From NCBI GenBank assembly GCA_963678705.1, contig CAVMBN010000183.1, positions 62,001 to 126,000 of the forward strand: a stretch of DNA of 64,000 nucleotides. Reading direction: 5' to 3'. Positions 26,783 through 51,828 of this stretch are shown one piece after another. The translations under genes were made by a program, and so were the position numbers. The notes below the pieces were generated by a model. The model did not search any database, was not told the DNA's origin, and saw only the letters and a program-made list of their open reading frames with translations. The DNA is from Panorpa germanica. Its lineage: Eukaryota > Arthropoda > Insecta > Mecoptera > Panorpidae. The first letter of the stretch is position 1, and every line of letters starts with the position of its first letter.

Positions 26783-27856
26783 CTACACGCTGCACAATGT
26801 AATGTTTGACACTAATCTGGACGGCACACCCCTGTAGCACTGCACAATAGTTTTCTGGAGATTTTCAACCCCCTTAGGCCCTTGGATACTAAGAGTATAA
26901 TTTAATGTGTATACGATGGGCCTCTCGTAGAAAATTGTTTGAACGGTGTAGATCCCCGCTGCAGTGATGGTGGAGTTCCCTGCTAAGGTACTAATCCGCG
27001 CACAACAGTTTAAAATATGCGTCAGTATTTTACAACTTGGGTCTGCTGACTGCCAATGTCTATATGTTAGACGATCATCTCCTGGTGACGAGTTCTCAAA
27101 TTTTCTTAGTCTTATTGATACTTCAGGTGGTGTGAATTTCCTGGTATTGAGTGGCTCACGCGTGTTATCTTCGATGGTTAGGTATATGTCATTTGGATAA
27201 TCCACAAAGGTCAGTGTTTTGGTAAAATGATTATGGTTGTCGTCTTTACTTATTTGGCAGGTGGTGCTTGCCTCACCCATTATTAATCGCATGGCTTGTC
27301 TGCGGTTCCTCTTATAAAGTTTTTGGATGAATTTAGCATCATTTATATCGCCTAAATTTCTACATTTTGCAACATAATTTGGGTCTCTTATTGCTAGTTT
27401 AACAATTTTACCTGCCTCAGTGGTAATTTCTGTTAAAGTCTGCTCAAGGTTTTCCCAATTATGAATGTTAATATTGCTGTTAAGAATCTTTAGTAGAGAA
27501 TCATTGAAACCATTAGGTGGTGAGTCATCTAAAATATCATCCGGGAGTCGTGGGAAATTGTCATTTATAACTTTAGGTTCTTCATCTATGTCCGAGTGGT
27601 TAGTATCGGCTGCATGAGGGCTTAATGGCATGGTGAAATCTGAAATTTAACTGTTAACACTTGTAGACAATTGGGAAGGTGTATATTGGGATTCAGTGAC
27701 TTTTAGAATGGCGTTTATGATGCTTTCCGGTATCATATTAACCTTGTTTGTATGCGCATTATCTGAAGGTGGTATTATAGGTGATGGTATAATAATAGGC
27801 GTATTCACAGTAACTTGCGTTATTATCTTACTATTATAATGTTCGTAATGTTGCAA
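26783..27856 (-). pseudogene. R2-like fragment, second copy
   Basis: Same two open stretches as 18554-19627 (27647-27856 and 26783-27631) with a handful of amino-acid differences, for example Pro to Leu in 'DIYLTIEDN'. See the first copy for motifs. Confidence 0.55.
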
Positions 27857-27885
27857 TTTACCATGGAAAACTCATAAGAACTCAT

Positions 27886-27947
<62 letters not shown>

Positions 27948-27980
27948 ATATATATATTTATATATATAAATATATATATA
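27886..27980. repeat. (TA)n microsatellite, uninterrupted
   Basis: This is the tract that carries the gypsy derivative in the left arm; here it runs unbroken into the TGTGGGG end of the 640-bp element. Confidence 0.95.
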
Positions 27981-28619
27981 TGTGGGGTGACAATAAACCT
28001 ATCCTGGTTGACGTTTCCAATTGTGGGTTTACCTTACACCTTAGTGGGTGTTAGCTAGATTACCAGCTGTGGTTTTAGCTGTTTTGATGTTATTTCAATC
28101 CTTAGTTGAGCCCCCATTTACAATTAAGCTTATTAAAAATAAAGTTAACACATTACTGAATTTAATAATAGTTCAATTAATTATTTCTCAAAGAAATTAT
28201 ATTACAAAAATAACTCACATATATAAAAATAGTTCACAACAATATTATCAAACAACAAATATTACAACTAGTAATATTGTTAAACGGATTCTAATTCTTA
28301 ATGTTATTAACAACTAGTTATTACTACATTTCGCGAATTTACCAATGACTGCCATACAAACTGTGTATGTTACTACTTTCGCCATTTTAACAATCTTCTG
28401 CCGCGCTAACCATGCATCATGCATGTCGTAGCAAGCGAACGTGTATTGCGACCTGTTAGAGGGGTATACAAGTCGTTTCAAAACAGCGCTAGTAACATTT
28501 AAATATAACTTAATATTAGCAATGTTCCTAACCTATTATATAAGGTTAGGTTAGGTTAGGTTCTTTATAATTATTATTTCTTACAAACTAATTATTTCTA
28601 ATCCTAAATTATATCCCAC

Positions 28620-28620
<1 letters not shown>
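27981..28620 (-). mobile_element. 640-bp element, second copy
   Basis: Reverse complement of 14333-14972 with the same ends and length. It contains a TTAGG run at about 28543-28562. Confidence 0.6.

Positions 28621-28701
<81 letters not shown>
28621..28701. repeat. (TA)n microsatellite
   Basis: Copy of 14264-14332, longer by about a dozen bases. Confidence 0.95.
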
Positions 28702-28703
<2 letters not shown>

Positions 28704-28704
<1 letters not shown>

Positions 28705-30541
28705 GTGGTGAGAAAAATTCTTAGAAAATATTAGGAAATCATCTATGTACTTTACTGCAAAATCATTAAGCTTACACTTTAGTAAATGTTACCTAGTATG
28801 CTTTGAAAAATAGCGGGTGATGTCTTTAAACCAAAAGGTAAACATATCCTGCAGTTTTTTTATATATACCCCTCGAGTGTTTTTTCTATGCTTTTAATTT
28901 GCACGTCTAACTCTTCTATATTTATGTTCTTTTTCATATGTTTTACTATATCTTAATATGATTGTCCAGCTTCTCGTGGTTTAATCACTAGTGTTTCTTT
29001 ACTTGTCCTCACGTTTGTCCTTCCTACTTTTTACCACTTCTGTGGTTACCCTTTCTGCACTATCTCTTCTTCAGTTCTCGTATGTAGATCTATGTAAAAG
29101 CCTTGATCTCCAAGTATAAGCTCTATGATTTTGCTAAGGTGGAACTCTAGCCCATCCTTATATAACATATAAACATAACATATAAACATATAAATATAAG
29201 TCCTTTTTTTCCCTCCTTTTTGGAGATGGTTTTTACTTTCTCTAATGACGCTGCCACATCCTTGATGCTTTCAGTGTTTGCTTTTACCCCACTCAGTCCC
29301 GCGAGATATGTGTAGCTGATACCGGCTTATTTTTCTTCACTATCCTGGTTTAAAATGGTTTTATTGTCCATGTATATTACTTTTTCTGGTTGTATCAGTT
29401 TTCTTTTGATAATATCCTCCATCTGCGGTATTCTCTCGCTTAATCATTATATAAGTGGATTGTTCTCGTTTACCTTTTGATCCATCACCGATATCATATC
29501 CTTCTTCTTTGACGACTGCATAAATCCGATTCTTACTATATTACTTGACCTAAATGCTTTCTTAAGCCATTTTGCGTGGATTAAGTCAAGCGCCTCTACC
29601 AAGTATATGCCTCCTGTCCTTTTCAGCTTAAATTTCGCTACTTTGTTTTCTATTTGAAGCGCATTCTTGTTTTCTTCGGAAGTAATAGTTTGAGTTCTTG
29701 CATCTGTCGTTGTAACTTTTCTTTTTTTCCTTCCTGGTTTCAAGTTATTTATTTTATTTTCTCAGTGTCAGTTTGAGTATCCATTTCTGCCGTGTCTCCT
29801 CTCATAGATAGTCTAGAAAGTGCATTTTGTATCTCTTCTGCTTTAAGTTTATCGACATAAAGGTTTAGTCTGGCTAAAATGTCTCTTATTTCCCTTTATT
29901 TATTTAGGTTTTCTTTAACAATGTTCTCCAGTTTCGCCTTTATTCTAACAATCATTTGAATGAGATGTTGAATAACATTTAGTTCCACTTGCTCTATGCT
30001 TTTATCCTTTTCCGGATTTTCAATTCTTTTCCTCTTCTTCTTTCGTGTCTTCTTCCTCTCAGTAGATTTCTCTGTTTTACAGAACAGATCTGACATTGAG
30101 CTGCTCCAAACTGGCAATCTCATGACCTTCCTTAATCTTTAAAAAGCGTGCAACTTCCTTTTTTCAGTATCTGAATTTCCTGCATCGGCCTGGTTTACCT
30201 TCGTCTGCTTTTCACAGTTCCTTGATAACTACCCAAGGGGAGCCTACATCACCACCCCCTCAAGTGCCTGTTCTAGCGATAGGACCTCTTGTCCCGTATT
30301 GTTAAATAAGGGGGGTAGTATTTTATTAACCTGCAGCTCGCCGTCCAAGATGGTACTGTGTGACTCCGCTAAAGTTTGTAGGACATTATCGTACACAATT
30401 GACAATTGAATTAGGAACAAATTGAAATGTAGTAAGGTCTGGGCAACTAGGGGGCTATGTTATTCCCTACTTCTCAAAATGACCTTTCCAGGAAACAATT
30501 CTCGCAGGGCCCACTAACAGTTTTGTCTGGAATTAATTTTG
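28704..30541 (-). pseudogene. Gypsy RT scrap plus LINE ORF1, second copy
   Basis: Reverse complement of 12431-14262. The open stretches 29447-29743 and 29896-30123 match the left copy almost perfectly (one change, Val to Phe in 'RIGFMQSS'). Confidence 0.5.
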
Positions 30542-33332: not shown

Positions 33333-33544
33333 TGAATAAACTTGCTTTCTACGCATGAAAAAGTTAGTACATTTCAAAAATATTTAATAGTTTATATTAT
33401 TTTAATAAAATATCATAAATTATTAAGAAAGAGTTAGAAATTGATTTGAATAAAAAAAAAGGAAAATAATAATAGGAAAAATACTTTAAGTGTAGACTTC
33501 GTCGAAGTGACTTATAAAATGACATTAACTGAATACATTTATTT

Positions 33545-34051
33545 TTGACAAATTATTTGAAATTATCGGTTGATGATGTTATGGCAATTCAAATTAATGG
33601 AATACATTTATTTTTTAAAAATTATTTGAAATTATCGGTTGTTGATCTTATGGCAATTCAAATTAATGGAAACAAGATGCTAGTAAAAATTGAAGAATAT
33701 TTATTAATTGATGATATTATTGAAATGACCAATAGGAAAATAATTTAGGTATTGATAAAAATAGTTATAATGTGCATATAGGAAGAGCAGATAAATTTAC
33801 AATAGTAAGAATGCACAATATAAAATATGAAATTTATGATATAGCGCTTCAAAATGCACTACTAGATTATGGTACGCATATTGATATCAAGAAAGAAACA
33901 TGGGGTAAAGACATGCCTTTTCCAGTGTATAATGGAACAAGATCAATAGAGATGATTTTGAAGAAAAAAATCCCATCGCATTTCACCCTTTTTCCACCGT
34001 TTATGCAAAAAAATACGCAAAATGAAACAAAAGCAAACAGTGCGAATAAAA
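33545..34051 (+). pseudogene. LINE ORF1 fragment, copy
   Basis: Same as 8922-9432, with two 69-bp repeats. Confidence 0.5.
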
Positions 34052-35618
34052 TTATTATTATTATTAATTTTTTATTGTTCGCCTTTCGGCTTTACAATCT
34101 ACATTCTTAATACATTTCATATACTTCAACTTAAAACTAAATTTTACATTATTCCAGACCTTCCTATCTCCAAAAGCACCTTCCGATTCCTCCTCTCTCG
34201 ACCCCCCTTCCTCACCTTCCCCAGTCCTCCCTCTGCACTGGTCCATTCCCATGTCTATCTTTCTGGGCCGAAGCCCAACTGTTTCCTCACCACTTCCTTC
34301 TCTCTCCTGCCTCCCTTCACCGCCTCTCCCAGTACCTCCCCTCTCCCCCTGTTCCCTGCGCAACCCAGCCACCAGCCCACTTATTCTCCTGTTTTTTCTT
34401 TCCTACTTACTATTTCCGCCATCCACCTCTTTCCTTCACTGCCTCCCTTTAATAGCTGGCCAATATTCCTTTCGCTCGCTACTTTTTCCTTACACTCAAA
34501 CTTAATGTGCTCCAGTGTTTCGTCCTGCGCTTCGCACACTCTACACTTTCTTTCCTCACTCTTTTCCCAGTATCCGTTTCCTTTTTCCTCATTTCCCAAT
34601 CTAAACCTTGCTGTTCTTCTTATGTGTTTTATGTCTTTTTCTATAAGGTACTAAGGCACATTATTTTCCCATAACCTTTTATATCTTTTATTGTAGTTAC
34701 TTTTTTCTATTTTTCCCATTCTCTCCTGCTGTTGTACCTCCCTATCCCTTCTCCTTAGCTCCTCTTCCACACTTGCGCCTCCTTCTCTTCTCCTCTCTGC
34801 CTCCTCGATCGCCATTCCATTACTTTCAAAGTACTCCTTTCTCTTTTTTGGACCTCCTCCCCCCCCCCATTCTTTATGCTGTCCTCTCTTATTTTCCTTA
34901 AAATTTTGCTTTCCGCCCTGGTCAATTTCTCCTTGTATTTTACTGCTCCTTCCCCTGTTTTAATTCGTATCCTCCATAACCATGTATCCCAGCGTGCACC
35001 TGTCCAGCCCTAGTAACCATTTAATATATCTCTCCTGTATTCTTTCCAACTTTTCTTACTCCTTCCACCCCTAAACCTCTGTTCCATACAACATCATACT
35101 AGTTATCAATCTGTCATACATCCATATCCTCTTTTGTATGTCCCCCCCAAATACATTTTCTCCTAATCCCCACACCCGTCGCATTGCTAGCTCCGCCTTC
35201 TTTGCTACCTCCCTTATCTGAGCCTCTTCTCCATTGTTCTTTTTAAAAGTGTAGCCCAGATATCTAAATTCTTCTACTTTCTCAATGACCTCTGTTTTGT
35301 ATTTCCACATTTTATGTATTCTTTTTCCTTCCTCTTTTTTAAATACCATAATTTTTGTTTTTTCCACATTTAACTCTAGTCCTTTCCTGTCTATATATCT
35401 CCCTAGCCGATGTGCCATCTCCTGTAGATCTCCTTCCCTTTTTGCCAATAGGACTTTATCGTCAGCGTATGCTAAAGTTCATATCTTGTAGTGTCTTCCT
35501 ATTAGCACCCTCCCATCTTGTCCTCTTTCCATTACCCCCTCCAAATCTGCTGTATATATCGCAAATAAAATTAGACTCAGAGGACAACCTTGCCTCAACC
35601 CCTTGTCTGTGTAGCTAG
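34052..35618 (-). mobile_element. Chimeric LINE, second joint
   Basis: Same H/B chimera as 24220-25786, with the switch at the identical segment (35011-35032). Two joints with one breakpoint mean that a single recombinant was amplified, or that the tandem array later expanded by equal-unit exchange. Confidence 0.9.
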
Positions 35619-36614
35619 AATAGTAATTGTTAGGTTTACGCGATGGGAAATAACAACAAGTATGTCACACTTAAATTAATAAATTACCAAAATCAGCAAA
35701 CAAATTAAAAAGGATAATAAATAAATAAATAAATAAGAACAAAAGACGGCTGATACTATTACGAGAAAGTTAAATTTGTCAAAAAAAAGTAAAAATGTCA
35801 AAACAGAAATAAAATAAGTTAATAAGTTAGGACCTGAGCAACACTTTACTGAAACATATAAATACTTGTCAATTCTCTAAAAATATAGCTACAGTCAACG
35901 GGTCAATAAAATAAAATAAAAACACATGGACAGCACTTTTAAATTATGCGCAATTAACAAATATGCTTAGTAAAATGTTGTAAAAGTCAATGGGGACGGT
36001 AGTTGTTATAATGATAACAGAAATTTAAAAGTGTCGCTTATTGTTATGACCTATGTACGAGAACTTGCAACAAGGACTATAAAACTGTGGATTTACCCGG
36101 AATGTTCGCGTTCGTGCAATGGACTCCGAACCCTGAATGACTACGTTTATGGAAATAAAAATTAAAATCAAATATGAACGTGTTACTGGATGAAATTACG
36201 GTAAATTACAGCGGTTTCAGTATATCAAAAGTTTTAAGGATAAAATTAAAAGAATTAAAAAAGCAAAGTAAAAGGTCAAATGAATAATAAAATAATTACG
36301 CTGTCGTAATGGGGGGTCAAAAGGAAGTTAAAATAAAAGTTATGGTGCCTGATGTCAAAAAATTACAAAAAAATTAAACAACACACAAACAACAAACGAA
36401 TATAATAAATTATTTGGCACTCTTGGTACGACAGATTACAATGTACAATTAGGAATTTCTTATTACATACAGACAATTATTTGGTTATTGTTACAAGACA
36501 TATATATAACATATATAATACAATACTTATATAAACTAATAACAATAATTTACAAAAAGTTTAAACATAAAATGCTTTAAGTAAACTGTCCTCTGATGTA
36601 TGTAAAAGAATGTC
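35619..36614. other. Noncoding stretch (copy of 19628-20630)
   Basis: Third copy of the region downstream of the R2-like fragment; nothing coding seen. Confidence 0.5.
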
Positions 36615-37688
36615 CTACACGCTGCACAATGTAATGTTTGACATTAATCTGGACGGCACACCCCTGTAGCACTGCACAATAGTTTTCTGGAGATCTTCAA
36701 CCCCCTTAGGCCCTTGGATACTAAGAGTATACTTTAATGTGTATACGATGGGCCTCTCGTAGAAAATTGTTTGAACGGTGTAGATCCCCGCTGCAGTGAT
36801 GGTGGAGTTCCCTGCTAAGGTACTAATCCGCGCACAACAGTTTAAAATATGCGTCAGTATTTTACAACTTGGGTCTGCTGACTGCCAATGTCTATATGTT
36901 AGACGATCATCTCCTGGTGACGAGTTCTCAAATTTTCTTAGTCTTACTGATACTTCAGGTGGTGTGAATTTCCTGGTATTGAGTGGCTCACGCGTGTTAT
37001 CTTCGATGGTTGGGTATATGTCATTTGGATAATCCACAAAGGTCAGTGTTTTGGTAAAATGATTATGGTTGTCGTCTTTACTTATTTGGCAGGTGGTGCT
37101 TGCCTCACCCATTATTAATCGCATGGCTTGTCTGCGGTTCCTCTTATAAAGTTTTTGGATGAATTTAGCATCATTTATATCGCCTAAATTTCTACATTTT
37201 GCAACATAATTTAGGTCTCTTATTGCTAGTTTAACAATTTTACCTGCCTCAGTGGTAATTTCTGTTAAAGTCTGCTCAAGGTTTTCCCAATTATGAATGT
37301 TAATATTGCTGTTAAGAATCTTTAGTAGAGAATCATTGAAACCATTAAGTGGTGAGTCATCTAAAATATCATCCGGGAGTCGTGGGAAATTGTCATTTAT
37401 AACTTTAGGTTCTTCATCTATGTCCGAGTGGTTAGTAACGGCTGCATGAGGGCTTAATGGCATGGTGAAATCTGAAATTTAACTGTTAACACTTGTAGAC
37501 AATTGGGAAGGTGTATATTGGGATTCGGTGACTTTTGGAATGGCGTTTATGATGCTTTCCGGTATCATATTAACCTTGTTTGTATGCGCATTATCTGAAG
37601 GTGGTATTATAGGTGATGGTATAATAATAGGCGTATTCACAGTAACTTGCGTTATTATCTTACTATTATAATGTTCGTAATGTTGCAA
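36615..37688 (-). pseudogene. R2-like fragment, third copy
   Basis: Same open stretches (37479-37688 and 36615-37463) with small private changes, for example 'HAAVTNHSD' for 'HAADTNHSD'. Confidence 0.55.
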
Positions 37689-37717
37689 TTTACCATGGAA
37701 AACTCATAAGAACTCAT

Positions 37718-37771
<54 letters not shown>

Positions 37772-37802
37772 ATATATATATTTATATATATATATATATA
37801 TA

Positions 37803-38441
37803 TGTGGGGTGACAATAAACCTATCCTGGTTGACGTTTCCAATTGTGGGTTTACCTTACACCTTAGTGGGTGTTAGCTAGATTACCAGCTGTGGTTTTAG
37901 CTGTTTTGATGTTATTTCAATCCTTAGTTGAGCCCCCATTTACAATTAAGCTTATTAAAAATAAAGTTAACACATTACTGAATTTAATAATAGTTCAATT
38001 AATTATTTCTCAAAGAAATTATATTACAAAAATAACTCACATATATAAAAATAGTTCACAACAATATTATCAAACAACAAATATTACAACTAGTAATATT
38101 GTTAAACGGATTCTAATTCTTAATGTTATTAACAACTAGTTAATACTACATTTCGCGAAATTACCAATGACTGCCATACAAACTGTGTATGTTACTACTT
38201 TCGCCATTTTAACAATCTTCTGCCGCGCTAACCATGCATCATGCATGTCGTAGCAAGCGAACGTGTATTGCGACGTGTTAGAGGGGTATACAAGTCGTTT
38301 CAAAACAGCGCTAGTAACATTTAAATATAACTTAATATTAGCAATGTTCCTAACCTATTATATAAGGTTAGGTTAGGTTAGGTTCTTTATAATTATTATT
38401 TCTTACAAACTAATTATTTCTAATCCTAAATTATATCCCAC

Positions 38442-38442
<1 letters not shown>
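37803..38442 (-). mobile_element. 640-bp element, third copy
   Basis: Again exactly 640 bp, between TA tracts (37720-37802 and 38443-38514). Confidence 0.6.
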
Positions 38443-38512
<70 letters not shown>

Positions 38513-38516
<4 letters not shown>

Positions 38517-39504
38517 GTGGTGAGAAAAATTCTTAGAAAATATTAGGAAATCATCTATGTACTTTACTGCAAAATCATTAAGCTTACACTTTAGTAAATG
38601 TTACCTAGTATGCTTTGAAAAATAGCGGGTGATGTCTTTAAACCAAAAGGTAAACATATCCTGCAGTTTTTTTATATATAGCCCTCGAGTGTTTTTTCTA
38701 TGCTTTTAATTTGCACGTCTAACTCTTCTATATTTATGTTCTTTTTCATATGTTTTACTATATCTAAATATGATTGTCCAGCTTCTCGTGGTTTAATCAC
38801 TAGTGTTTCTTTACTTGTCCTCACGTTTGTCCTTCCTACTTTTTACCACTTCTGTGGTTACCCTTTCTGCACTATCTCTTCTTCAGTTCTCGTATGTAGA
38901 TCTATGTGAAAGCCTTGATCTCCAAGTATAAGCTCTATGATTTTGCTAAGGTGGAACTCTAGCCCATCCTTATATAACATATAAACATAACATATAAACA
39001 TATAAATATTAGTCCTTTTTTTCCCTCCTTTTTGGAGATGGTTTTTAGTTTCTCTAATGACGCTGCCACATCCTTGATGCTTTCAGTGTTTGCTTTTACC
39101 CCACTCAGTCCCGCGAGATATGTGTAGCTGATACCGGCTTATTTTTCTTCACTATCCTGGTTTAAAATGGTTTTATTGTCCATGTATATTACTTTTTCTG
39201 GTTGTATCAGTTTTCTTTTGATAATATCCTCCATCTGCGGTATTCTCTCGCTTAATCATTATATAAGTGGATTGTTCTCGTTTACCTTTTGATCCATCAC
39301 CGATATCATATCCTTCTTCTTTGACGACTGCATAACTCCGATTCTTACTATATTACTTGACCTTAATGCTTTCTTAAGCCATTTTGCGTGGATTAAGTCA
39401 AGCGCCTCTACCAAGTATATGCCTCCTGTCCTTTTCAGCTTAAATTTCGCTACTTTGTTTTCTATTTGAAGCGCATTCTTGTTTTCTTCGGAAGTAATAG
39501 TTTG
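38513..39504 (-). pseudogene. Gypsy RT scrap and 3' part of LINE ORF1, third copy
   Basis: Copy of about 13279-14262, interrupted on its right by the copia element. The last 5 bp (GTTTG, 39500-39504) are the copia target duplication. Confidence 0.6.
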
Positions 39505-39853
39505 TGTTGGGAACTATCCTTGCAGAGATTGAATAAAAGATAATGAATTAAAAGATGTATGTTTAATTAAAAAGTATTCTATATGTAGTATTAGCACTGG
39601 CTTCACAAAGAGCGTCCTATCTGTATAACGTTTGGATTCAACTACTCAACTTGACTTCGTACGACATGACGAAGCACTCCCGGTACTATTAGTTAATGTT
39701 ACCAATCTCAGATGGCTCGTGTGTTCCTAGTGCTGGTAGTACGTTGGTATCTACAATAATATCTACACTGGTAACTTACTATACTATGATAACACATATA
39801 TATTTATAATTGGCGGTAAATACAAAACTAATTATTTACTTATAATTACAACA
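39505..39853 (-). repeat. 3' LTR of copia element
   Basis: 349 bp, TG...CA ends. Just inside it the minus strand reads GAATATGGGGGCGTG, a candidate polypurine tract. Confidence 0.92.
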
Positions 39854-39919
39854 CGCCCCCATATTCACAGCTCATTATAAATAGAAAAGTCCTTAAATCT
39901 AAACAGTCTTTGACACATA

Positions 39920-40558
39920 TTAAATCACTGATATTATTATAAGTGTAAAGGCACTTTGATTGTCTATATTTAATTGTCCTTCACATTTAACACTTCTGTT
40001 AATTTCAATACTTGATGGTCCTCCTAGTGATGCTTGACGTTTGCTGTTCCGCGTTTTAGCTCCCTTGCATAACGTTAAGACATTTCTTGCGTCTCCGGCA
40101 TTGGCGTAGTCAGCATCAGAGATATCTTCCGTATACATTCCATAATTTGTGTCACCTCCTCTAAATTGTTCTGCATCTTGCGAACTGTTGGGTACTGTAA
40201 AACTTGTTAGTAACACAGCTTCTCGATTTCTGGTCCTTATTATTTTCTCGGCGTCCTTTTGAACCTGACTCAGTTGTACACATTGCTCTAATTTAACACG
40301 CTTCATCTTGGCTAAATTTACTATATTCATTTCGCGTTCATGGAGAAGTTCTAGCAGCACCTGTACCATAGTTTGTGCATCTGCAATGACACAAACTCCT
40401 GAAGATTCAATAAGCCGCGTAAGTTCTTGTCCCTGTTGCAAAACCTGGAACGTCGTGTTTTGCATTTGACTGACCCTTTCATTGTGTAGCAAGAGAAGTT
40501 CCTTCGCTTTTTGTACATCGTGAGATAACTCGCTGTGTTGCAGTTCTTCTGTCCACAT
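39920..40558 (-). pseudogene. Trio-like segment continued, then RNase H remnant of copia
   Basis: 212 codons in the same phase as the main copia frame. The first about 130 residues are the Trio-like spectrin repeats. After 'DAEQF' the sequence returns to a copia RNase H remnant ('DADYANAGDARN', 'AKTRNSKRQASL', 'LNIDNQSAFTLI'), itself shortened and lacking the C-terminal end. The second junction (about 40155-40166) therefore also preserves phase. Confidence 0.8.
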
Positions 40559-40852
40559 ATCCAGTTGGAAACATGCAGCTAGTGCATCTCATTCAAATAG
40601 TCGTAGCCTTAAACATAAATCAAGTCGCATTTTTCTTGTGTCCCAGAATTCCTCAAGTTCTCCACGCTGTTTAGCAAGTCGTTCCACAGCTCCTTCTACG
40701 GCTGACATCGAGCCCGTAGAGTCTATATTTCCCATAGACCTTATTTCTTGTAGAAGCTTCTCTCCTGGTTCCTGAGCTACAGAGTGAATCTCCTGTACGT
40801 TGCATTCACTGGTCTGTGTTAGTTCTTCAACTGCTGTTAGTAATCTCTCCGC
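40155..40852 (-). other. Captured Trio/Kalirin-like spectrin-repeat segment
   Basis: About 700 bp, open except for one TGA (40589-40591). It reads as the end of one spectrin repeat, then the end of the next ('EPGEKLLQEIRSMG'), then the helix 'WDTRKMRLDLCLRLRLFE', then 'WTEELQHSELSHDVQKAKEL', then 'QNTTFQVLQQGQELTRL', then 'LHEREMNIVNLAKMKRVKLE'. The order and spacing match Trio/Kalirin. Compared with what I recall of the family, about one repeat is missing near 'HSVAQ|EPGEK'. No intron is seen, suggesting capture from spliced mRNA. Trio itself is a cytoplasmic exchange factor for Rac/Rho; only scaffold repeats, not the exchange domains, are here. Confidence 0.8.
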
Positions 40853-43468
40853 TTTCGTGTAATCGATGCCTTCGATCTGTGCGAATCCTTTTGCACATGG
40901 TTTAGCCTTGTATTTGTTTATTTTTCCGTCTGATGCTCTCTTAATTTTGAATACCCATCTGGATTCAATTGCTTCTCGGTTGGGTGGTAAGTTTGTTACC
41001 TCCCATACATCATTGTCACGTAATGCTGATAATTCAGCGTTTATGGCCTCTTGCCATTCTGTCCCATATTGACTCTTTATCGCCTCTTCATACGAGTTTG
41101 GTATTTCTGCTTCAACAACGTTGGCTTCGGTATAGCGTATTGGTTTTCTCGTATTACGTCTCGGTCGATTTACCTGGTCGACTTCAGTTTCAATCCTTAA
41201 TTCTGTGGTCTCATTTTCAATCACTTCTTCTTGATTGTCGATTTCCCCTTTTTCTTTTTCGATTGCTATTTCCGACATCTGGGTTGGGTTTTCTCTGTCT
41301 AAATTATAATTTTCGTTGAATGTCACATTTCTCGATACTTTGATTTTCTTTGTGGTTGGGTCAAACAGTCTGTAATTTGTCGATTCCTTTTCATAACCCA
41401 CGAATATTAATTTCTTACTTTTACTTTCCAGCTTCGTTCTAAGTGCATCTGGAATATGCATGAATGCGTCACAACCAAAAGTTTTGCTATGGCTCAAGTT
41501 CGGTTTCTTTTTCATCCAGGCTTCATATGGTGTTGAATCTGTAATCTGTCTAGTTGCCGTTCTGTTGAGTATGTATACTGCTGTATTTACAGCCTCTGCC
41601 CACAGGTACATTGGTTTCTTGCTTGCGTAAAGCATTGATCGTGCACTTTCCATAATTGTTCTGTTATCACGTTCAGATCTTCCGTTTTGTTCTGGAGTAT
41701 ATGGTGCTGTAGTTTCCATTAGGATGCCTTTGCTTGAAAGATAACTTTGAAACTCACGGTTGCAGTATTCTTTCCCGTTGTCAACTCTCAGAATTTGCGG
41801 TCTGTATCCAAATTTATTTTCACATATCTTTACGTATTTTTGAAGACATGATAAAACGTCTGTCTTGTGTTTAATAAACCAAACCATTCTAAAACCAGTA
41901 TGGTCATCTTTGAATAGTACGTAGTACCTACAACCACTTACAGATGGTTCAGACATTGGGCCACACACATCACTGTGTATGATTTCACCAGGTCTTCTCA
42001 CTGTTTTGGTGTGTTTCTCGAATTTCAACTTCTGTTGTTTTCCTTGCTGACAGCCTTCACAGAAGAATTCGTTGGTATTTTCAATATCCACTCCTTCCAC
42101 TAACCTTTTCGAAACCATTTCGCAAAGAGTCTTAACATTCAGATGTCCCAGTCTTTCGTGCCAAACTTGAAGATTTGACCTTACTGTAGTATGTGCTTCC
42201 ATGGTAATTACAGTTTCGATTTGTAGCTTATACAAATTATTTGATTCTCGGATTGCACTGGCTACTAACATTCCACGGTCGTATATTTCCGCTGTCTCGT
42301 TTTGTTTAACTATTTTCATCCCTTTTTTAGTTATCACTCCTTCAGAAAATAAGTTCTTCCTAAGCTTGGGTATATACCAGACATTTGTAATCAATCCATC
42401 CACGCTTCTACCTTTAATTAATTTCTTAATCTTTACTGTGCCGATGCCTTCCACAGGTACTTCTTCATTATTGCCTAACTTGACGGTGAGTCCCTTACAG
42501 TCACTAAACGTATTAAAGAATTCCCGTTTATATGTCATATGGGTTGAAGCTCCGCTATCCAGGATCCAACCTTCTTTACTGATAGTCTGGTTGCATATTT
42601 CTGCGTTGAAGGCGCCGTGATTACTTTGATGTGGTTCTTCTTCGTATTGGTTCGTTATTCTCTTACAATCTCTCGCGTAATGACCCTTACGACTACATTT
42701 AAAGCATGAGACATTTTGCTTATTTCTTCTACTGATCATTACTGTTCTGCAATCCCTCGCGTAGTGACCCTTCCGGTTACATTTGAAGCACGTCACAATT
42801 TTCTTATTAATCTGCCTTCTTTCTGTATGTACTGCCCTAGTAGTTGTTAGAGCGACTTCTTCTTCTTCTTCATATTTCATGAGATTCGCCTCCTCATCCA
42901 ACAAACGTCCAGTTAAGTTGGCCATGTTCTGTTTCGAATCCTCCACTGACAACCATGCTTGCCTAAAGTTACGATACTTGGATGGTAGCGTACTCAATAC
43001 TTTAGTCATGATTGCAGTATCACTGAGAGTATCACCTGACTCCCGTATCTGCTTGCCAAGATTTTCCACTTTCGAAATATGTTGCACCATCGTCTCGTTG
43101 AGTGCCATTTTGTATTGATGAAACCTCTCGTGTACTAACATCTTGTTCGTTTCTGATTTCATCTCATAAATAGAGCTAAGTTTGTCCATTATCTCCTTGG
43201 CCGATTCACAATTTTCGATTAGCGTTATTTGCTGTAGTTCCATCGAGCTGGTTATGATGCACATCGCCGTTGCATCCTTTTGAATCCACGTTTCTAAATC
43301 AGCTGATGCGTTAACCCCCGGTTTAACATCGGTGCCTGTTGTACACTCGTACACACCCTTCGATTTCAATATGCACTTCATTTGAAATTTCCATTGCTGG
43401 TAGTTCTTACCACCAAACTTAACGATGCTAATACTGTTGGTCATCTTAATCTTGTCGATCGAGCACAA
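40589..43468 (-). CDS. Copia Gag-PR-IN-RT(N) fused to Trio-like spectrin repeat
   Basis: 959 codons to an in-frame TGA. Gag occupies residues about 10-225, followed by two CCHC zinc knuckles (227-240, 255-268). The copia aspartic protease motif 'WILDSGAST' is at 301-309 (DSG 304-306). The GAG-pre-integrase/HHCC region is at about 435-475. The integrase core has D500, D563 and E599, all present. RT starts at about 800 ('ESRWVFKIK' 835-843) and breaks off after 'GFAQIEGIDY' (861-870), before any catalytic Asp. From residue about 873 the sequence is not copia: 'ERLLTAVEELTQTSEC', then 'EEFWDTRKMRLDLCLRLRLF', resembling spectrin repeats of Trio/Kalirin RhoGEFs. The next frame (39920-40558) is in phase, separated only by the stop at codon 960. 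Confidence 0.9.
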   Translation of the reverse strand: MCSIDKIKMTNSISIVKFGGKNYQQWKFQMKCILKSKGVYECTTGTDVKPGVNASADLETWIQKDATAMCIITSSMELQQITLIENCESAKEIMDKLSSIYEMKSETNKMLVHERFHQYKMALNETMVQHISKVENLGKQIRESGDTLSDTAIMTKVLSTLPSKYRNFRQAWLSVEDSKQNMANLTGRLLDEEANLMKYEEEEEVALTTTRAVHTERRQINKKIVTCFKCNRKGHYARDCRTVMISRRNKQNVSCFKCSRKGHYARDCKRITNQYEEEPHQSNHGAFNAEICNQTISKEGWILDSGASTHMTYKREFFNTFSDCKGLTVKLGNNEEVPVEGIGTVKIKKLIKGRSVDGLITNVWYIPKLRKNLFSEGVITKKGMKIVKQNETAEIYDRGMLVASAIRESNNLYKLQIETVITMEAHTTVRSNLQVWHERLGHLNVKTLCEMVSKRLVEGVDIENTNEFFCEGCQQGKQQKLKFEKHTKTVRRPGEIIHSDVCGPMSEPSVSGCRYYVLFKDDHTGFRMVWFIKHKTDVLSCLQKYVKICENKFGYRPQILRVDNGKEYCNREFQSYLSSKGILMETTAPYTPEQNGRSERDNRTIMESARSMLYASKKPMYLWAEAVNTAVYILNRTATRQITDSTPYEAWMKKKPNLSHSKTFGCDAFMHIPDALRTKLESKSKKLIFVGYEKESTNYRLFDPTTKKIKVSRNVTFNENYNLDRENPTQMSEIAIEKEKGEIDNQEEVIENETTELRIETEVDQVNRPRRNTRKPIRYTEANVVEAEIPNSYEEAIKSQYGTEWQEAINAELSALRDNDVWEVTNLPPNREAIESRWVFKIKRASDGKINKYKAKPCAKGFAQIEGIDYTKAERLLTAVEELTQTSECNVQEIHSVAQEPGEKLLQEIRSMGNIDSTGSMSAVEGAVERLAKQRGELEEFWDTRKMRLDLCLRLRLFE

Positions 43469-43812
43469 TCTTAATGTCTAAATAGTCTCTCACACACGAG
43501 GACTTATTAATCTTGATGTTCGAACACAATCCTTTCATTAATTTCTAAATAGTCTCACAAGCACGTGTGGACTTATTAATGTTACCGTTTTTTAGCCCAA
43601 AAAGTATATTAATTTCAAAATAGTTTCGATGAACTTATTAATATCACTTTTCCTTCACCACAAACACAATATTAATGTCTAAATAGTCTCACAAGCAAAT
43701 GTGGACTTATTAATATCACTTCCGTTTGCTTCAAGATGGCTGCCTCACTTTTTTTCTCAAAACCCTGATATCTTGTAATATATCTCTTAATCGATGTTGC
43801 AGAAGATCGTAA

Positions 43813-43827
43813 TCTGGGCCCATAACC
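43813..43827 (-). promoter_or_regulatory. Copia primer-binding site (initiator tRNA-Met anticodon arm)
   Basis: The plus strand reads CTGGGCCCATAACC directly against the 5' LTR. This equals the anticodon stem-loop of eukaryotic initiator tRNA-Met, so the genomic RNA is complementary to it. Copia-group elements are known to prime from an internally cleaved 5' half of this tRNA. It also confirms the minus-strand orientation. Confidence 0.88.
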
Positions 43828-44176
43828 TGTTGGGAACTATCCTTGCAGAGATTGAATAAAAGATAATGAATTAAAAGATGTATGTTTAATTAAAAAGTAT
43901 TCTATATGTAGTATTAGCACTGGCTTCACAAAGAGCGTCCTATCTGTATAACGTTTGGATTCAACAACTCAACTTGACTTCGTACGACATGACGAAGCAC
44001 TCCCGGTACTATTAGTTAATGTTACCAATCTCAGATGGCTCGTGTGTTCCTAGTGCTGGTACTACGTTGGTATCTACAATAATATCTACACTGGTAACTT
44101 ACTATACTATGATAACACATATATATTTATAATTGGCGGTGAATACAAAACTAATTATTTACTTATAATTACAACA
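43828..44176 (-). repeat. 5' LTR of copia element
   Basis: 349 bp, three mismatches by eye against the 3' LTR (an A/T, a G/C and an A/G difference). Confidence 0.92.
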
Positions 44177-44181
44177 GTTTG

Positions 44182-45030
44182 AGTTCTTGCATCTGTCGTT
44201 GTAACTTTTCTTTTTTTCCTTCCTGGTTTCAAGTTATTTATTTTATTTTCTCAGTGTCAGTTTGAGTATCCATTTCTGCCGTGTCTCCTCTCATAGATAG
44301 TCTAGAAAGTGCATTTTGTATCTCTTCTGCTTTAAGTTTATCGACATAAAGGTTTAGTCTGGCTAAAATGTCTCTTATTTCCCTTTATTTATTTAGGTTT
44401 TCTTTAACAATGTTCTCCAGTTTCGCCTTTATTCTAACAATCATTTGAATGAGATGTTGAATAACATTTAGTTCCACTTGCTCTATGCTTTTATCCTTTT
44501 CCGGATTTTCAATTCTTTTCCTCTTCTTCTTTCGTGTCTTCTTCCTCTCAGAAGATTTCTCTGTTTTACAGAACAGATCTGACATTGAGCTGCTCCAAAC
44601 TGGCAATCTCATGACCTTCCTGAATCTTTAAAAAGCGTGCAACTTCCTTTTTTCAGTATCTGAATTTCCTGCATCGGCCTGGTTTACCTTCGTCTGCTTT
44701 TCACAGTTCCTTGATAACTACCCAAGGGGAGCCTACATCACCACCCCCTCAAGTGCCTGTTCTAGCGATAGGACCTCTTGTCCCGTATTGTTAAATAAGG
44801 GGGGTAGTATTTTATTAACCTGCAGCCCGCCGTCCAAGATGGTACTGTGTGACTCCGCTAAAGTTTGTAGGACATTATCGTACACAATTGACAATTGAAT
44901 TAGGAACAAATTGAAATGTAGTAAGGTCTGGGCAACTAGGGGGCTATGTTATTCCCTACTTCTCAAAATGACCTTTCCAGGAAACAATTCTCGCAGGGCC
45001 CACTAATAGTTTTGTCTGGAATTAATTTTG
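44182..45030 (-). pseudogene. LINE ORF1 5' part, third copy (right of copia)
   Basis: Continuation of 38513-39504 across the copia insertion, including the open stretch 44385-44612 and the GC-richer leader. It starts after the second GTTTG. Confidence 0.55.
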
Positions 45031-45339
45031 TGTGTTCAAAATTATTTAAAATAAAAAATTAATTTTTTATTTGTATGCTAAGCTTTTATTATTTTATTTA
45101 CTAGTACAGCAAGTTTATATTTTACTAGTACTGTTTATATTTTTATAATATATATTGTTTGGTTTTCTTGTCCGGTGACTGGATATTGGTGAATGGGTAT
45201 GAAATTTACTTCTCCATCCATACTTGAAAACTTATGATTGGAAATTTCAATTCTAATTGTTTTTATAATATGCTTGTATAATAATGGTTATTCATTTAAA
45301 CAATTGTTAGGGTAATATAAAGGTTCAATATTTCATCGT

Positions 45340-47821
45340 ATATCGTTGTCTATAACTGAGAGGATGTTTCTGCTTCAGCATCAACAACAAGGGGGTTTTT
45401 GTTTATTAATTCTTTGACATGTCTAAATATGTGTTTGCCTCTTTGTAAGTTCTTTAAAGTAGCCCTTCCATATAGGGTTATTTCTGTTGTTTTGTGTGGT
45501 TCAAAATACATAATTGTTTTTCCTTTCCTAGGTCATCCTCGTATATATACGGTAACGTACGGTGTACGTACGGTTGGTGCTACTTTTTTATTTAATCGCT
45601 CTATATATTTTTCCTATTCTAATCTTGTTTTCTCAGCTATTTGTTCCTGTAGTAGTTTTAATGCTTTCTGATGTTCATTGATCTTTTCGGTAGCTATTAT
45701 TCTTTGTTCTTCAAAATCTGTGATATCTATATTACTGCGAGTGATAGCATTGATTCGTATTTAAAAGAGTGCGTCAGAAACCTTGTTATCTTTACCTGGC
45801 TTATAATATATATCGAAATCGTAGTCAAATAATTTTATTTGATATCTTGCGAGTTTACTTGAACTGTCGTTATGAGTTTCCAGTCTCGCTAATGGTTTGT
45901 GATCTGTAAATAGGTTGAACTGTCTTCCGTAAAGATAATGTCGGAAATGTTTTACTGCCTAAACTATTTACTGTTTTACTGCCTAAACTATGGATAGTAG
46001 TTTCTTTTCGATTTTTTTCTGCTGGATTTAACGTGCGTGATGCATATGCTATAAGATGATTATTTTGAGATTGTACTGCTCCAATGGCTTAGTGAGAGGC
46101 ATCTGTTGTTAAAGAGAATTTCTTTATATTCTCTGGTCTTTTGAAAACACGTTTATTCATTAATTGTTTCTTTAAGGTGTCGTATGCTTTGATGTATCCA
46201 GGGGTTAGGTGGTTCTAAACTCATTTGTTGAGACATGCTGTAAGTGGTTTAGCTATTTTATGATATCCAATTTCTATGAATTTTCTATAAAATCCTGTTA
46301 ATCAAAGGAAATTTTTAATTTTCTCTGTAGTTTTTGGTATAGGGAAGTTTTTACCTGCTTTAATTTTCCGAGGATTTTGTTTCGCTCTATTTTCTGTTAT
46401 AATATGACCTAAGAATTAGGCTTCTTTCTTTAGGTATTCACATTTTTCTTTTAGAAGTTTTAAATTGCGTTTACGTAACCTTTGAGGACTAGTTCTAAGT
46501 GGTGCAGGTGTTGTTGCAGGCTTGTTCCAAATATGATTTTGTCGTCGAGATAAACTGGACATATTTTTCCTACTAATCTAGTTAAAACATGATTCAATAA
46601 TCGTTGGAAGATAGCAGTGGCGTTCTTTAATCCAAAAGGCATTCTTAAAAACTCATAGTGACCATGAGTTGTAGAGAATGCTGCTTTCTCGATACTTTCT
46701 GGTTCTACTTCTATTTGGTAAAAACCTGAGTGTAGGTCGAGTAATGTAAAATAATTTGCTCTTCCTAGACTGTGTAATATATCATGCATATTAGGGATAA
46801 GGAACGTCTCTAGTAATAGATCTAGAAATAGAAAAATCCTCCGTAGTTATGTCGTTGAGCTTTCTTTAGTAAATTGCAATTCTGAACTTTTTTATTTTAG
46901 ATTGGTCATCTTTTTTGTGACTATTAGTACGGGATGATTTAGGGCGAATATGATATTCGTATAACACCTTTTTCAAATAATGTTTGAACTTGTCTATCTA
47001 CTTCTTGTTGTGTTGTTTCGGGCAAACGCTAGTTACGAGAATAAATTGGTTCATGGGGTTTAGTTCGTATAGAGCATTTGATATCGTGAGTAAACGTAAG
47101 CAAATCATTTTCTCTACGGAATAGGTCGCCATAGTTAATAAGTAGTTTATATAGGTGATCTCTCTCTTCTGTATTTAAATGCTTGTCTTGAATCTCTTGC
47201 TGTTATAAAGGTATGGTTTCTCTTTATTATTATAATATATAAAAATGTTTACTTTAAGAGTTTTTAAAATGTTTTCAAATATATCTATTACTGTTTGTAT
47301 TTGTTTAATTAGGTTGGTTCCAATTAATCCGTCAAAATCGTTAGAAAATTTGAATAAGTAAATCTTTGTAAATCCTTGAATTTTGAATATAAATAATATA
47401 GGTATTTCTGCTAATTATGTATGTTTCGTGGTTTGATGCGGCGTTTGAATAATAAATTCTGCATTGTTTATATAATACTTTTCAGAGACGAATTTCGTAT
47501 TTAATATGGTCCATGAAGATCCGGTATGAATTAGTAGTTTTGAATTTTAGGATTTGATATATATATGTAGGGTAATGTATTGTATTTATTATTATTCATT
47601 GTTATGTATTCAGTTCTATCATCTGGCCTGATGGAAAATCCTCGTAATTTTCTTTATTTTCATAACATTCTTTATAAAATTTATTTTGGATTACTTCTTC
47701 TGCATTACATCTTTGTTGTGGTAGTGTCATGTGATGCAGACATGTCATTTCTCATGTGTCCATGGGTTCATGTCGACGTATGTCTGTTTTTTTGCTATGG
47801 TGATGGTCATTTGTTTTTCAT
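45340..47821 (-). pseudogene. Decayed gypsy pol, right-arm copy
   Basis: Reverse complement of 9640-12120. The RT open stretch is 46460-46789, with one private change (Ala to Thr in 'LKNATAIFQ'). Confidence 0.8.
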
Positions 47822-48033
47822 TGAATAAACTTGCTTTCTACGCATGAAAAAGTTAGTACATTTCAAAAATATTTAATAGTTTATATTATTTTAATAAAAT
47901 ATCATAAATTATTAAGAAAGAGTTAGAAATTGATTTGAATAAAAAAAAAGGAAAATAATAATAGGAAAAATACTTTAAGTGTAGACTTCGTCGAAGTGAC
48001 TTATAAAATGACATTAACTGAATACATTTATTT

Positions 48034-48539
48034 TTGACAAATTATTTGAAATTATCGGTTGATGATGTTATGGCAATTCAAATTAATGGAATACATTTAT
48101 TTTTTAAAAATTATTTGAAATTATCGGTTGTTGATCTTATGGCAATTCAAATTAATGAAAACAAGATGCTAGTAAAAATTGAAGAATATTTATTAATTGA
48201 TGATATTATTGAAATGACCAATAGGAAAATAATTTAGGTATTAATAAAAATAGTTATAATGTGCATATAGGAAGAGCAGATAAATTTACAATAGTAAGAA
48301 TGCACAATATAAAATATGAAATTTATGATATAGCGCTTCAAAATGCACTACTAGATTATGGTACGCATATTGATATCAAGAAAGAAACATGGGGTAAAGA
48401 CATGCCTTTTCCAGTGTATAATGGAACAAGATCAATAGAGATGATTTTGAAGAAAAAAATCCCATCGCATTTCACCCTTTTTCCACCGTTTATGCAAAAA
48501 AATACGCAAAATGAAACAAAAGCAAACAGTGCGAATAAA
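48034..48539 (+). pseudogene. LINE ORF1 fragment, right-arm copy
   Basis: Same as 8922-9432, with two 69-bp repeats. Confidence 0.5.
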
Positions 48540-50232
48540 ATTATTATTATTATTAATTTTTTATTGTTCGCCTTTCGGCTTTACAATCTACATTCCTAAT
48601 ACATTTCATATACTTCAACTTAAAACTAAATTTTACATTATTCCAGACCTTCCTATCTCCAAAAGCACCTTCCGATTCCTCCTCTCTCGACCCCCCTTCC
48701 TCACCTTCCCCAGTCCTCCCTCTGCACTGGTCCATTCCCATGTCTATCTTTCTGGGCCGAAGCCCAACTGTTTCCTCACCACTTCCTTCTCTCTCCTGCC
48801 TCCCTTCACCGCCTCTCCCAGTACCTCCCCTCTCCCCCTGTTCCCTGCGCAACCCAGCCACCAGCCCACTTATTCTCCTGTTTTTTCTTTCCTACTTACT
48901 ATTTCCGCCATCCACCTCTTTCCTTCACTGCCTCCCTTTGATAGCTGGCCAATATTCCTTTCGCTCGCTACTTTTTCCTTACACTCAAACTTAATGTGCT
49001 CCAGTGTTTCGTCCTGCGCTTCGCACACTCTACACTTTCTTTCCTCACTCTTTTCCCAGTATCCGTTTCCTTTTTCCTCATTTCCCAATCTAAACCTTGC
49101 TGTTCTTCTTATGTGTTTTATGTCTTTTTCTATAAGGTACTAAGGCACATTATTTTCCCATAACCTTTTATATCTTTTATTGTAGTTACTTTTTTCTATT
49201 TTTCCCATTCTCTCCTGCTGTTGTACCTCCCTATCCCTTCTTCTTAGCTCCTCTTCCACACTTGCGCCTCCTTCTCTTCTCCTCTCTGCCTCCTCGATCG
49301 CCATTCCATTACTTTCAAAGTACTCCTTTCTCTTTTTTGGACCTTCTCCCCCCCCCCCCATTCTTTATGCTGTCCTCTCTTATTTTCCTTAAAATTTTGC
49401 TTTCCGCCCTGGTCAATTTCTCCTTGTATTTTACTGCTCCTTCCCCTGTTTTAATTCGTATCCTCCATAACCATGTATCCTAGCGTGCACCTGTCCAGCC
49501 CTAGTAACCATTTAATATATCTCAACTGTATTTTTTCCAACTTTTCTTGTTCCTTCCACCCCCAAACCTCTGCTCCATACAACATCATACTGGCTATCAG
49601 TCTGTCATACATCCATATTCTCTTTTGTATGTCCCCCCCCAAATACCTTTTCCCCTAGTCCTCATACCCGTCGTATTGCTAGCTCCGCCTTCTTTGCTAC
49701 TTCCCTTATCTGAGCCTCTTCTCCATTGTTCCTTTTAAAAGTGTAGCCCAGATATTTAAATTCTTCTACTTCCTCTATGTCCTCTGTCTTGTATTTCCAC
49801 CTTTTATGTCTTCTCTTTCCTCCCTCTTTTTTAAATACCATAATTTTTGTCTTTTCCACATTTAACTCTAATCCTTTCCTGTCTATATATCTCCCTAGCC
49901 GATGTGCCATCTCCTGCAGCTCTCCTTCCCTTTTTGCCAACAGGACTATATCGTTAGCGTATGCTAAAGTCCATATCTTGTAGTGTCTTCCTATTAGCAC
50001 CCCCTTCGTCTTGTTCTCTTTCCATTACCACCTCTAAGTCTGCTGTATATATCGCAAATAAAATGGGGCTCAGAGGACAACCTTGCCTCAACCCCTTGTC
50101 TGTCCAGAATTCTTCTGATTCTTCACCCCCAACTCTTATTCTCATTCTTGCTTCTTTGTAAATTTCTTCAATACATTCCACTATATCCTCATCTATTTTT
50201 TTCTTTCTCATGTACTTCCACAATTTCTGTCT
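48540..50232 (-). mobile_element. LINE 'B', right-arm copy
   Basis: Reverse complement of 7229-8921. It is B-type throughout, including across the recombination segment (49502-49523), so this is an unrecombined flank. The active-site box is again YAND, so that mutation predates the inversion. Confidence 0.9.
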
Positions 50233-51828
50233 GTCATCATCATTCAACAACTATTAATGATGATACTTTTGTGATTGTAAATAATAATGAGAATTTGTAC
50301 AAAATTCTTGCAGCGCATAAGGAATATAAGAGAAAAATTGTAGAATCATCATCAAGTGAAGGTAGTTTGGCAAATTCTGAGATTGAAGATAGCTTAAATA
50401 ATTTAAACGCATCCAAAATGGTAATAGTATGGGAAAAGAAACAGCAACCTACCAAAGAAACAAATGAAAATGATTGAAAAAGGATTAGATGGAAAAGATA
50501 AAACAATTTAGAAGCTACAGATACCAGATGTAAAGAAGATGGATGCTGCCTACCAACAACAATTAAAGATTTCGATCCGCTGTTCAGAATTTTGAGTTTA
50601 CAGATACGATAATCGTACATTTCGTCTGAATCTGATGCAAATTGAAGCAGTGATCTAATATGGCGCATTAAATAAGTTCGAGTGAATATGGGGTCATTAA
50701 TCAACTTATCCATTTTAAAAGGAGAACAGAAAAAAAAGCAACAGTCAACATTGATGCACAGGATGCTGGAAGATGTTGCAGTGAATAACTCGGAAAAAGT
50801 TTCATTGATATTTAACGATGCAAACAAACTAAAGAAAACCACATACGGTTAACTTAATTCTTAAACTAATAATTTAGTCAGATGGATACTAAGCATAATA
50901 AGAAGCAAAGAGATTCCTGCTAACCGACATGGTGACTGCGCTTCTAATGATTTGGAAATCATGTGCCGCTTATCTTCTTCTTGATCCAAGCTTCCCTTCA
51001 GGAAGAGTTAAACACATATTAACAGAATCACAACCAGCTGTCATTATATATGATGAAAACGATGTTACCATTTAAAGAAACACACTGTATATCGTATATG
51101 CAACTTTTACCACAAGGAGAATGTCTTATGCCATGCTCTAGCATGGCATAGACATAGAAGTATGTAAAACAATAGGTAAATCATCTCTAGATGATTTAGC
51201 TATTGTTTTATATACTTTCGGAAGCACGGGAAATCCAAAAGATACTGCTGAACATTTTGCAGTAGCAAAGAACCAATCTGCCTTAAAATCTCTCAGAATT
51301 TGGGTCTGCTATAAGGAACCACTAGCAGTGTCATTTGCACAAGAATTCTTTAATTATTTTTCTTCAGAGAATTATATATTTTGTAATTTTTATAGCAGCA
51401 CAGAGGTCGTGGGTTACATCACATTCTTCACATGCGAAAGCAATACAAAGAATTCCATTGTCACTGTAACACAACTGAGGGAACAAGGCTACTTCATTGG
51501 AATTACAACTTTTATTACTTCCAATGATTTAGAAGAAATTCTCGAAAGACTGACAACAGACGAAAAGTCACTCATGTTGGATACAAAACTAACATCTGCT
51601 TATGCTAGTGAATTTCTACATGATAAATACAAGGAAGAGTCGTATGGAATGGTAAGCATTAGCAATGGCAAAAGAAGAATTAAGAAAACTTTAAATAAAA
51701 AAACATTCAGCTTCGTAGTTAAGGATCAAAATGACGTCACAATAGGCGTAGCACTAAACTATGACGCCAGAGATGAAACAAAAGTTAGACATTTGCAAGA
51801 ATCTTTACAACAAACACAAGCCCGTTAA
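50233..51828 (+). pseudogene. Ebony-like pseudogene, right copy (uninterrupted)
   Basis: Broken frames show, in order: 'NSEKVSLIFNDANK' (start of an adenylation domain, about 50785-50830); 'IWKSCAAYLLLDPSFPSGR' (core A2/A3-like, about 50946-51005); 'VLYTFGSTGNPKD' (AMP-binding signature, about 51203-51242); 'NFYSSTEVVGYITFFTC' (A5-like, about 51385-51440); and 'SYGMVSISNG' to 'GVALNYDARDE' (acyltransferase-like tail, about 51640-51775). The last two are in one open 166-codon frame (51328-51828). Domain segments between these blocks are missing, and no introns are seen. This order suits ebony, which joins beta-alanine to biogenic amines. It is a deleted retrocopy or captured gene piece, not a functional enzyme. 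Confidence 0.5.

Follow-up and report, generated by a model that had tools for sequence, protein, structure and literature searches.

Cellular gene capture is known from retroviruses. In helper-dependent transducing retroviruses, host coding sequence replaces pol and forms an in-frame fusion behind a viral protein; such viruses need a helper and recombine with it. For reverse-transcribing elements generally, most known cases of such capture come from retroviruses and plants.

Established phenomena include template switching, gene transduction and non-autonomous elements (PMC5408686, PMC8232201, PMC9674220, PMC13317346). In metazoan LTR-mediated retroposition (Tan et al. 2016, Genome Res., as related in parts of PMC5408686, PMC8232201 and PMC9674220), a spliced host mRNA comes to lie between the LTRs of an element, fused to it where short stretches are identical. 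The maize LTR element Bs1 (PMC13317346, PMC5408686) took up parts of cellular genes by transduction and has a hybrid reading frame. Pxyfem of Plutella xylostella, according to PMC9674220, combines an insect LTR element with a spliced gene by template switching and is multi-copy, and TRIMs (PMC3532108, PMC6934838) and BARE-2 (PMC13317346) are moved in trans or reshaped by template switching. On the reading given below, the locus described here would resemble each of these in those respects. It lies in a 64,000-nucleotide stretch of Panorpa germanica DNA, the whole of which was analysed and is referred to as the window. With a probability of about 0.9, we interpret it as the product of a retroviral-type transduction, in which a copia element captured part of a spliced trio mRNA and was propagated by a helper bearing reverse transcriptase (RT).

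Results

A complete copia insertion with only the start of its RT

The window contains a full copia LTR element at 39505–44176 on the reverse strand, with both LTRs and a 5-bp target site duplication (TSD). The 5′ LTR (43828..44176, TG..CA) and the 3′ LTR (39505..39853) are each 349 bp on the same strand and are identical at 346 of 349 positions, and GTTTG is present as the left (39500..39504) and right (44177..44181) copies of the TSD. Two sister duplicons (near 29692 and 13283) retain the empty site with a single GTTTG, and the joined flanks of the element align with these units over their full length at 99.4% and 99.0% identity; the element is thus a single, complete insertion, as the original prediction had it. 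Adjacent to the 5′ LTR is a candidate primer binding site (GGTTATGGGCCCAG, 43814..43827, reverse strand), which we take to resemble the half-tRNA-iMet site of Drosophila copia, and a polypurine-rich tract (GAATATGGGGGCG, 39854..39866, reverse strand) adjoins the 3′ LTR; both were read from the sequence, and the names primer site and purine tract are presumed assignments. Self-comparison and comparison of copies show that the untranslated leader (43469..43827, reverse strand) contains diverged tandem repeats. The leader repeats at 43464–43719 have spacings of 67 and 134 bp, and positions 2334–2981 of another copy, L024, match the leader several times over, such that the repeat number seems variable.

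The surroundings are themselves complex. Positions 1–55495 of the window form a palindromic, repeat-rich region of large direct and inverted duplicated units about 97–99% alike, including 44173–51721 with 13287–5740 (inverted) and 33524–39508 with 23692–29696. By eye, we also recognized a 694-aa gag-like open frame with zinc-knuckle motifs (15474–17558) and a 573-aa LINE-type reverse transcriptase frame (3824–5545), with related shorter frames elsewhere.

An open reading frame at 40589–43468 (reverse strand) encodes 959 aa of gag, protease and integrase, in which Pfam identifies, in order, copia Gag, zinc knuckles, a protease-like domain, integrase and the start of RVT_2. The integrase thus lies upstream of the RT start in one polyprotein, which is the Ty1/copia order, and the TG..CA LTRs and short TSD are likewise those of Ty1/copia elements. 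A Ty1/copia element has its own RT, and here the RVT_2 match extends only over profile positions 1–54 of 244; since it stops there, we class the element as a non-autonomous derivative, in agreement with the prediction of a nonautonomous element that is structurally complete, with whole LTRs and TSD, and lacks RT. The copia part with an open frame, comprising gag, protease, integrase and most of RT positions 1–54, occupies 40865..43468 (reverse strand, by Pfam). Judged by columns conserved in 64 relatives, 2 of 104 are changed in gag, protease and integrase and 2 of 12 in the retained RT start, and the copia part 40865..43468 is 96–99% identical to eight RT-bearing copies in the same genome.

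The inserted segment matches Trio

About 702 bp following the RT start match Trio proteins in the same frame, which sustains the predicted in-frame switch of the copia polyprotein to about 700 bp of trio spectrin repeats. The captured cDNA is assigned to 40167..40855 (reverse strand) from trio homology and comparison of copies. Its first part has only two matches, P0001 (a protein with spectrin and RhoGEF domains, E 1.4e-19) and P0002 (Timema cristinae, E 4.5e-16), and its second part matches 15 proteins; the named relatives of the trio piece are insects. The tblastn comparison of P0002 with the stretch gives E 3e-75, and chance similarity was dropped as an explanation on these grounds. P0002 itself is identified as Trio by its DH-PH half, for which PDB chains named Triple functional domain protein are the best matches (7sj4, E 3.2e-155; 1nty, E 8.7e-149). 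Trio as the source gene, as originally read, is thereby supported. Proteins homologous to the fragment bear Kalirin-like spectrin repeats (PF23323), and the fragment itself scores 23.0 bits against a Pfam cut-off of 27. The captured part consists of spectrin repeats only; a Pfam scan found no RhoGEF domain in the captured stretch, and the earlier description of it as an exonic RhoGEF segment does not hold. PDB searches with the trio pieces returned only weak spectrin or unrelated matches, and no relative of the 212-aa piece was found in viral contigs.

Exon borders can be recognized in other arthropods' trio genes, in which homology starts abruptly before VSS (P0004, P0005) and before VFET (P0008, P0010, P0011, P0013). 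The window trio contains no intron at either place, these borders being judged from trio of other arthropods. Of 63 columns invariant in seven compared trio sequences, the fragment has lost 11 by deletion and differs at 17 of the remaining 52. Leave-one-out comparison gives 0–9 changes for the trio proteins, with the exception of P0007, which has 20 of 69, equal to the fragment's 20 of 69 at the same columns. The most diverged copy, L024, shows no greater similarity to known trio proteins than young copies do, so either the host has a divergent trio or a large part of the change arose before L024. Part of the fragment's apparent decay may, on these sequence comparisons, reflect a divergent host trio.

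The trio piece is followed in the same frame by a remnant of RNase H (39923..40158, reverse strand; P0023, E 6e-6), recognized by homology and a count of conserved columns and containing gaps that keep the frame. With columns conserved in 64 full-length relatives as the yardstick, 5 of the 12 aligned are changed, seven are deleted and nine are lost beyond the end; among the 64 relatives themselves the median by the same yardstick is none and the worst is 87%. An intact RNase H was rejected because conserved columns are changed, deleted or lost. The predicted return to copia RNase H is thus right as to the frame, and what the frame returns to is a decayed relic.

Trio-bearing and RT-bearing copies share the genome

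We searched the 464-Mb genome (249 contigs) with the whole element and scored 30 of 205 candidates, and all copy counts are therefore lower bounds. At least seven full-length copies were found at 97–100% identity, together with a second trio form that matches in two pieces. Mapping 28 loci with five pieces of the element revealed at least 19 that bear trio. Eight have the form seen in the window (L001–L007 complete, L025 partial, L001 being the window copy), and 11 have what we refer to as the older form (L014–L024). The locus was originally viewed as one event in one element; it is instead a member of a multi-copy family. Eight further loci (L008–L013, L026, L027) have no trio and instead carry a copia RT and RNase H, with copia pol over the whole length by tblastn, and L028 is partial and was placed in no class. 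RT-bearing copies cease to match at query position 1349, which is the left junction. In L009, the one RT-bearing copy scanned, RVT_2 is matched over positions 50–242 of 244 (E 5.9e-44). RT-bearing copies occur ~6.3 kb apart on contig C1, at L026 and at matches at 3372064, 3378406 and 3384747, with a further LTR in L026, apparently as a tandem array; two more RT-bearing-type matches beside L026 were not counted.

The RT-bearing partners in this genome have the same element ends as the trio-bearing copies. The window element accordingly has what a non-autonomous element is expected to have, namely cis signals (LTRs, candidate primer site and purine tract) and an RT-bearing partner with the same ends.

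A secondary crossover and the original joins

The original prediction took the left junction of the window form, which lies near 40860, as the site of capture. The older form leaves copia 164 bp before this point, at about pol residue 813 and about four residues before the Pfam RT match begins, and continues with 149 bp more of trio in frame (QEDVKQ..LDWLENH..., the counterpart of FQEDVKQVLDWLQNH in P0001); this left join was seen in 10 of the 11 older-form copies, and the spacers were translated in five. The junction at about 40860 is a later crossover, and the original capture lies 164 bp earlier, just before RT. Around the crossover, RT-bearing copies read ATCGAT-TACACG-GAAAC, the older form AACACA-TACACG-AAAGC, and the window form ATCGAT-TACACG-AAAGC, with TACACG at 40856..40861 (reverse strand) in the window. 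TACACG is present in all seven window-form copies compared, in 10 of the 11 older-form copies (L022 reads TACAGG) and in three of the eight RT-bearing copies (L013, L026, L027), the other five reading TATACG, short of the full 6 nt. As judged from these strings and the comparison of copies, the window form arose by recombination of the older form with an RT-bearing element at TACACG, and its left junction is secondary. In the trio tree, in which most supports are low, L007 and L025 group together (support 99) apart from L001–L006, such that the TACACG crossover may have occurred twice, or the trio pieces been reshuffled.

The right trio/copia join is at 40159..40166 (reverse strand), where L022 and L024, the most diverged copies, read CTTAAAG. 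L024 has ACAACTTAAAGAAGG here, and RT-bearing copia (L009, L013, L027) has TTACTTAAAGGC in the corresponding position, from which it follows that ACTTAAAG (8 nt) is common to L024 and RT-bearing copia; the exact string was not found in L012, the fourth of the RT-bearing copies looked at. Of the three joins compared, two show a short identity: ACTTAAAG at the right join, where the comparison is with copia only, and TACACG at the secondary crossover.

The right join also bears on a DNA route of capture, by which a processed trio pseudogene was inserted in the RT gene and the disrupted copy spread after later deletions. Although this too would yield intron-free trio DNA inside an element, by eye there is neither poly-A nor the 3′ end of the trio gene at the right join, both ends of trio are inside coding sequence, RT is replaced in frame and not interrupted, and 8 nt are common at the join, and we regard this route as very improbable. 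An RNA route of capture is the one we infer from these sequence features.

L024 is the most diverged copy, with an LTR pair 90% identical counting gaps and LTRs 75–79% identical to those of the window. It alone keeps a 249-bp (83-codon) piece of spectrin repeat, which is absent from the other copies having this part; relative to L024, the window trio has an internal 249-bp deletion at about 40768. The trio of L024 also contains a 375-bp insertion (L024:6224–6598), probably a small DNA transposon. An intron was rejected for this insert, whose inverted ends (CCCAGTAAACA/TGTTTACTGGG) give it the look of a small transposon. The copies taken together suggest that capture was followed by the deletion and then by recombination.

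Recent movement and probable exchange with RT-bearing elements

An exact 5-bp TSD is present in all 14 trio-bearing copies with both LTRs complete (L001–L007, L014–L019, L024), seven of which have identical LTRs; L020–L023, with element ends set approximately or a partial LTR, and L025, covered without its 5′ part, were omitted from this set. No two of the 14 copies match one another in their 400-bp flanks at E 1e-20. Fusion of trio and copia reads in the assembly is hardly conceivable, as trio lies between copia pieces at 19 loci and the measured copies have their own TSDs (14/14) and no common flanks. The RT-less elements have evidently moved repeatedly and recently, which implies RT supplied in trans; mobilisation in trans is thus the probable source of these copies.

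The gag tree mixes the three kinds of copy with support: L005, for instance, pairs with L009 (98) and L019 with L013 (96), L009 and L013 being RT-bearing. Several other nodes are weak. The integrase tree likewise mixes trio- and RT-bearing copies. AU tests, with 26 sequences for gag and 27 for integrase, reject as single clades the RT-bearing copies (gag p 9.6e-7, integrase p 1.3e-4), the young trio-bearing copies (1.5e-4 and 3.1e-4) and the window form (0.0013 and 0.00097). Gene conversion could also give such mixed gag and integrase trees, and with many copies of both parent types in the genome, the window form might have come from DNA recombination or conversion between genomic copies and not from template switching during reverse transcription. 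We think this unlikely: the positions brought together at the crossover are non-homologous, with no more than 6 nt in common, and each of the seven complete products has full LTRs and a TSD of its own, which is what reverse transcription should give.

In trio-bearing copies omega is 0.2 for both gag (p against 1, 1e-23) and integrase (4e-23), and in RT-bearing copies it is 0.15 for both. Most simply, gag and integrase are under selection in the RT-bearing family, and recombination carries the effect over to the RT-less family; selection may also act directly on these two regions in the RT-less copies. For the RNase H relic omega is 1.6, the top of the grid (p 0.15), and for the trio piece in all trio-bearing copies it is 0.6 on the grid (p 0.0096 against 1) and 0.73 with free kappa, with one trio piece only taken from each of L023 and L024.

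Fourteen of the 19 copies have a trio piece without stops or frameshifts. The other five have a TGA (L001), stops (L020), stops and a frameshift (L022), an internal deletion (L023), or an insertion together with a stop in the extra piece (L024). The single TGA that had been predicted is indeed present at 40589..40591 (reverse strand); among the 19 copies that bear trio, it is private to the window copy. An open relic is present in 18 of 19 copies (L016 being covered to 224 of 240), and the gaps in trio and relic preserve the frame in every copy but L022 and L023. Codon variants of the young copies comprise 48 replacements, 26 silent changes and one stop. As there are few changes between young copies, an open trio frame is compatible with little selection.

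These data bear on whether the trio fragment is more than cargo, its helical repeats, fused behind integrase, having been retained because they aid the element, perhaps in assembly or transport. The open frame in most copies, the frame-keeping gaps and the overall trio omega point in this direction. Against it, omega for trio is not different from 1 in young copies (p 0.11) or in either form alone (p 0.19 and 0.086), a bare count of 75 codon variants in the young copies includes one stop, the relic behind trio drifts, and the window copy has a stop in the middle of the piece. Such a role is in our view doubtful, and the data give at most a weak hint of function for the fragment. Equally doubtful is the extended version, in which the RT-less family would be a stable parasite of its RT-bearing relative and a host spectrin-repeat domain would work in the gag-integrase polyprotein, through assembly, transport or dominance over the helper; if true, an animal retrotransposon would have kept a host gene domain for its own use.

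Discussion

The probable course of events for the transduction is as follows. In a virus-like particle, RT would have left its copia RNA template for a trio mRNA packaged with it and later returned, each time where the two RNAs are briefly identical. Trio would thereby have taken the place of the RT sequence, beginning shortly ahead of its first residues and ending where RNase H begins. The RT-less product would have been copied in trans by the RT of related intact elements, and the trio piece would later have undergone the in-frame 249-bp deletion. Recombination of a trio-bearing RNA with an RT-bearing RNA at TACACG would then have generated the window form. With recombination ongoing, the helper would keep renewing the gag and integrase sequences of the RT-less family, whereas trio and the relic drift. 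Recombination of a spliced trio mRNA in the particle had been proposed from the start, and is consistent with the trio source, with the lack of an intron at two borders known in other arthropods' trio and with the short identities seen at two joins out of three; the proposal does not hold in treating the locus as one event or in taking the junction at about 40860 as the site of capture.

One animal genome thus holds an RT-bearing partner, the first form of the capture, a diverged copy with more trio and a later recombinant, with recent insertions. Because these forms coexist and their crossovers are defined to the base, the order of capture, deletion and helper recombination can be read, and mobilisation in trans and the refreshment of gag and integrase by a helper become testable in populations.

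By analogy, the family appears to behave as a helper-dependent transducing retrovirus would, within an animal copia family. It differs from transducing retroviruses in that the vehicle is a copia element and the fragment is a structural repeat domain without the catalytic RhoGEF part. A thin literature search of titles and abstract openings in a partial library found no animal copia element with trio or another host gene in place of RT; within that search, what appears new is an animal copia family with host cDNA replacing RT, recent dispersal, and the parent type and a secondary recombinant in one genome. Metazoan LTR-mediated retroposition, as described in PMC5408686, PMC8232201 and PMC9674220, yields retrocopies, whereas here the chimera is a multi-copy family with an RT-bearing partner and a secondary recombinant in the genome. 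Bs1, as described in PMC13317346 and PMC5408686, is a plant element with three donor genes, whereas here a single animal donor gene replaces RT in copia and the copies are recent. For Pxyfem, PMC9674220 describes tandem arrays for which LTRs were not found; in the trio family the LTRs, TSDs and dispersed insertions are complete. Unlike TRIMs and BARE-2, as these are described in PMC3532108, PMC6934838 and PMC13317346, the trio family keeps a conserved gag-protease-integrase frame and carries an identified host gene.
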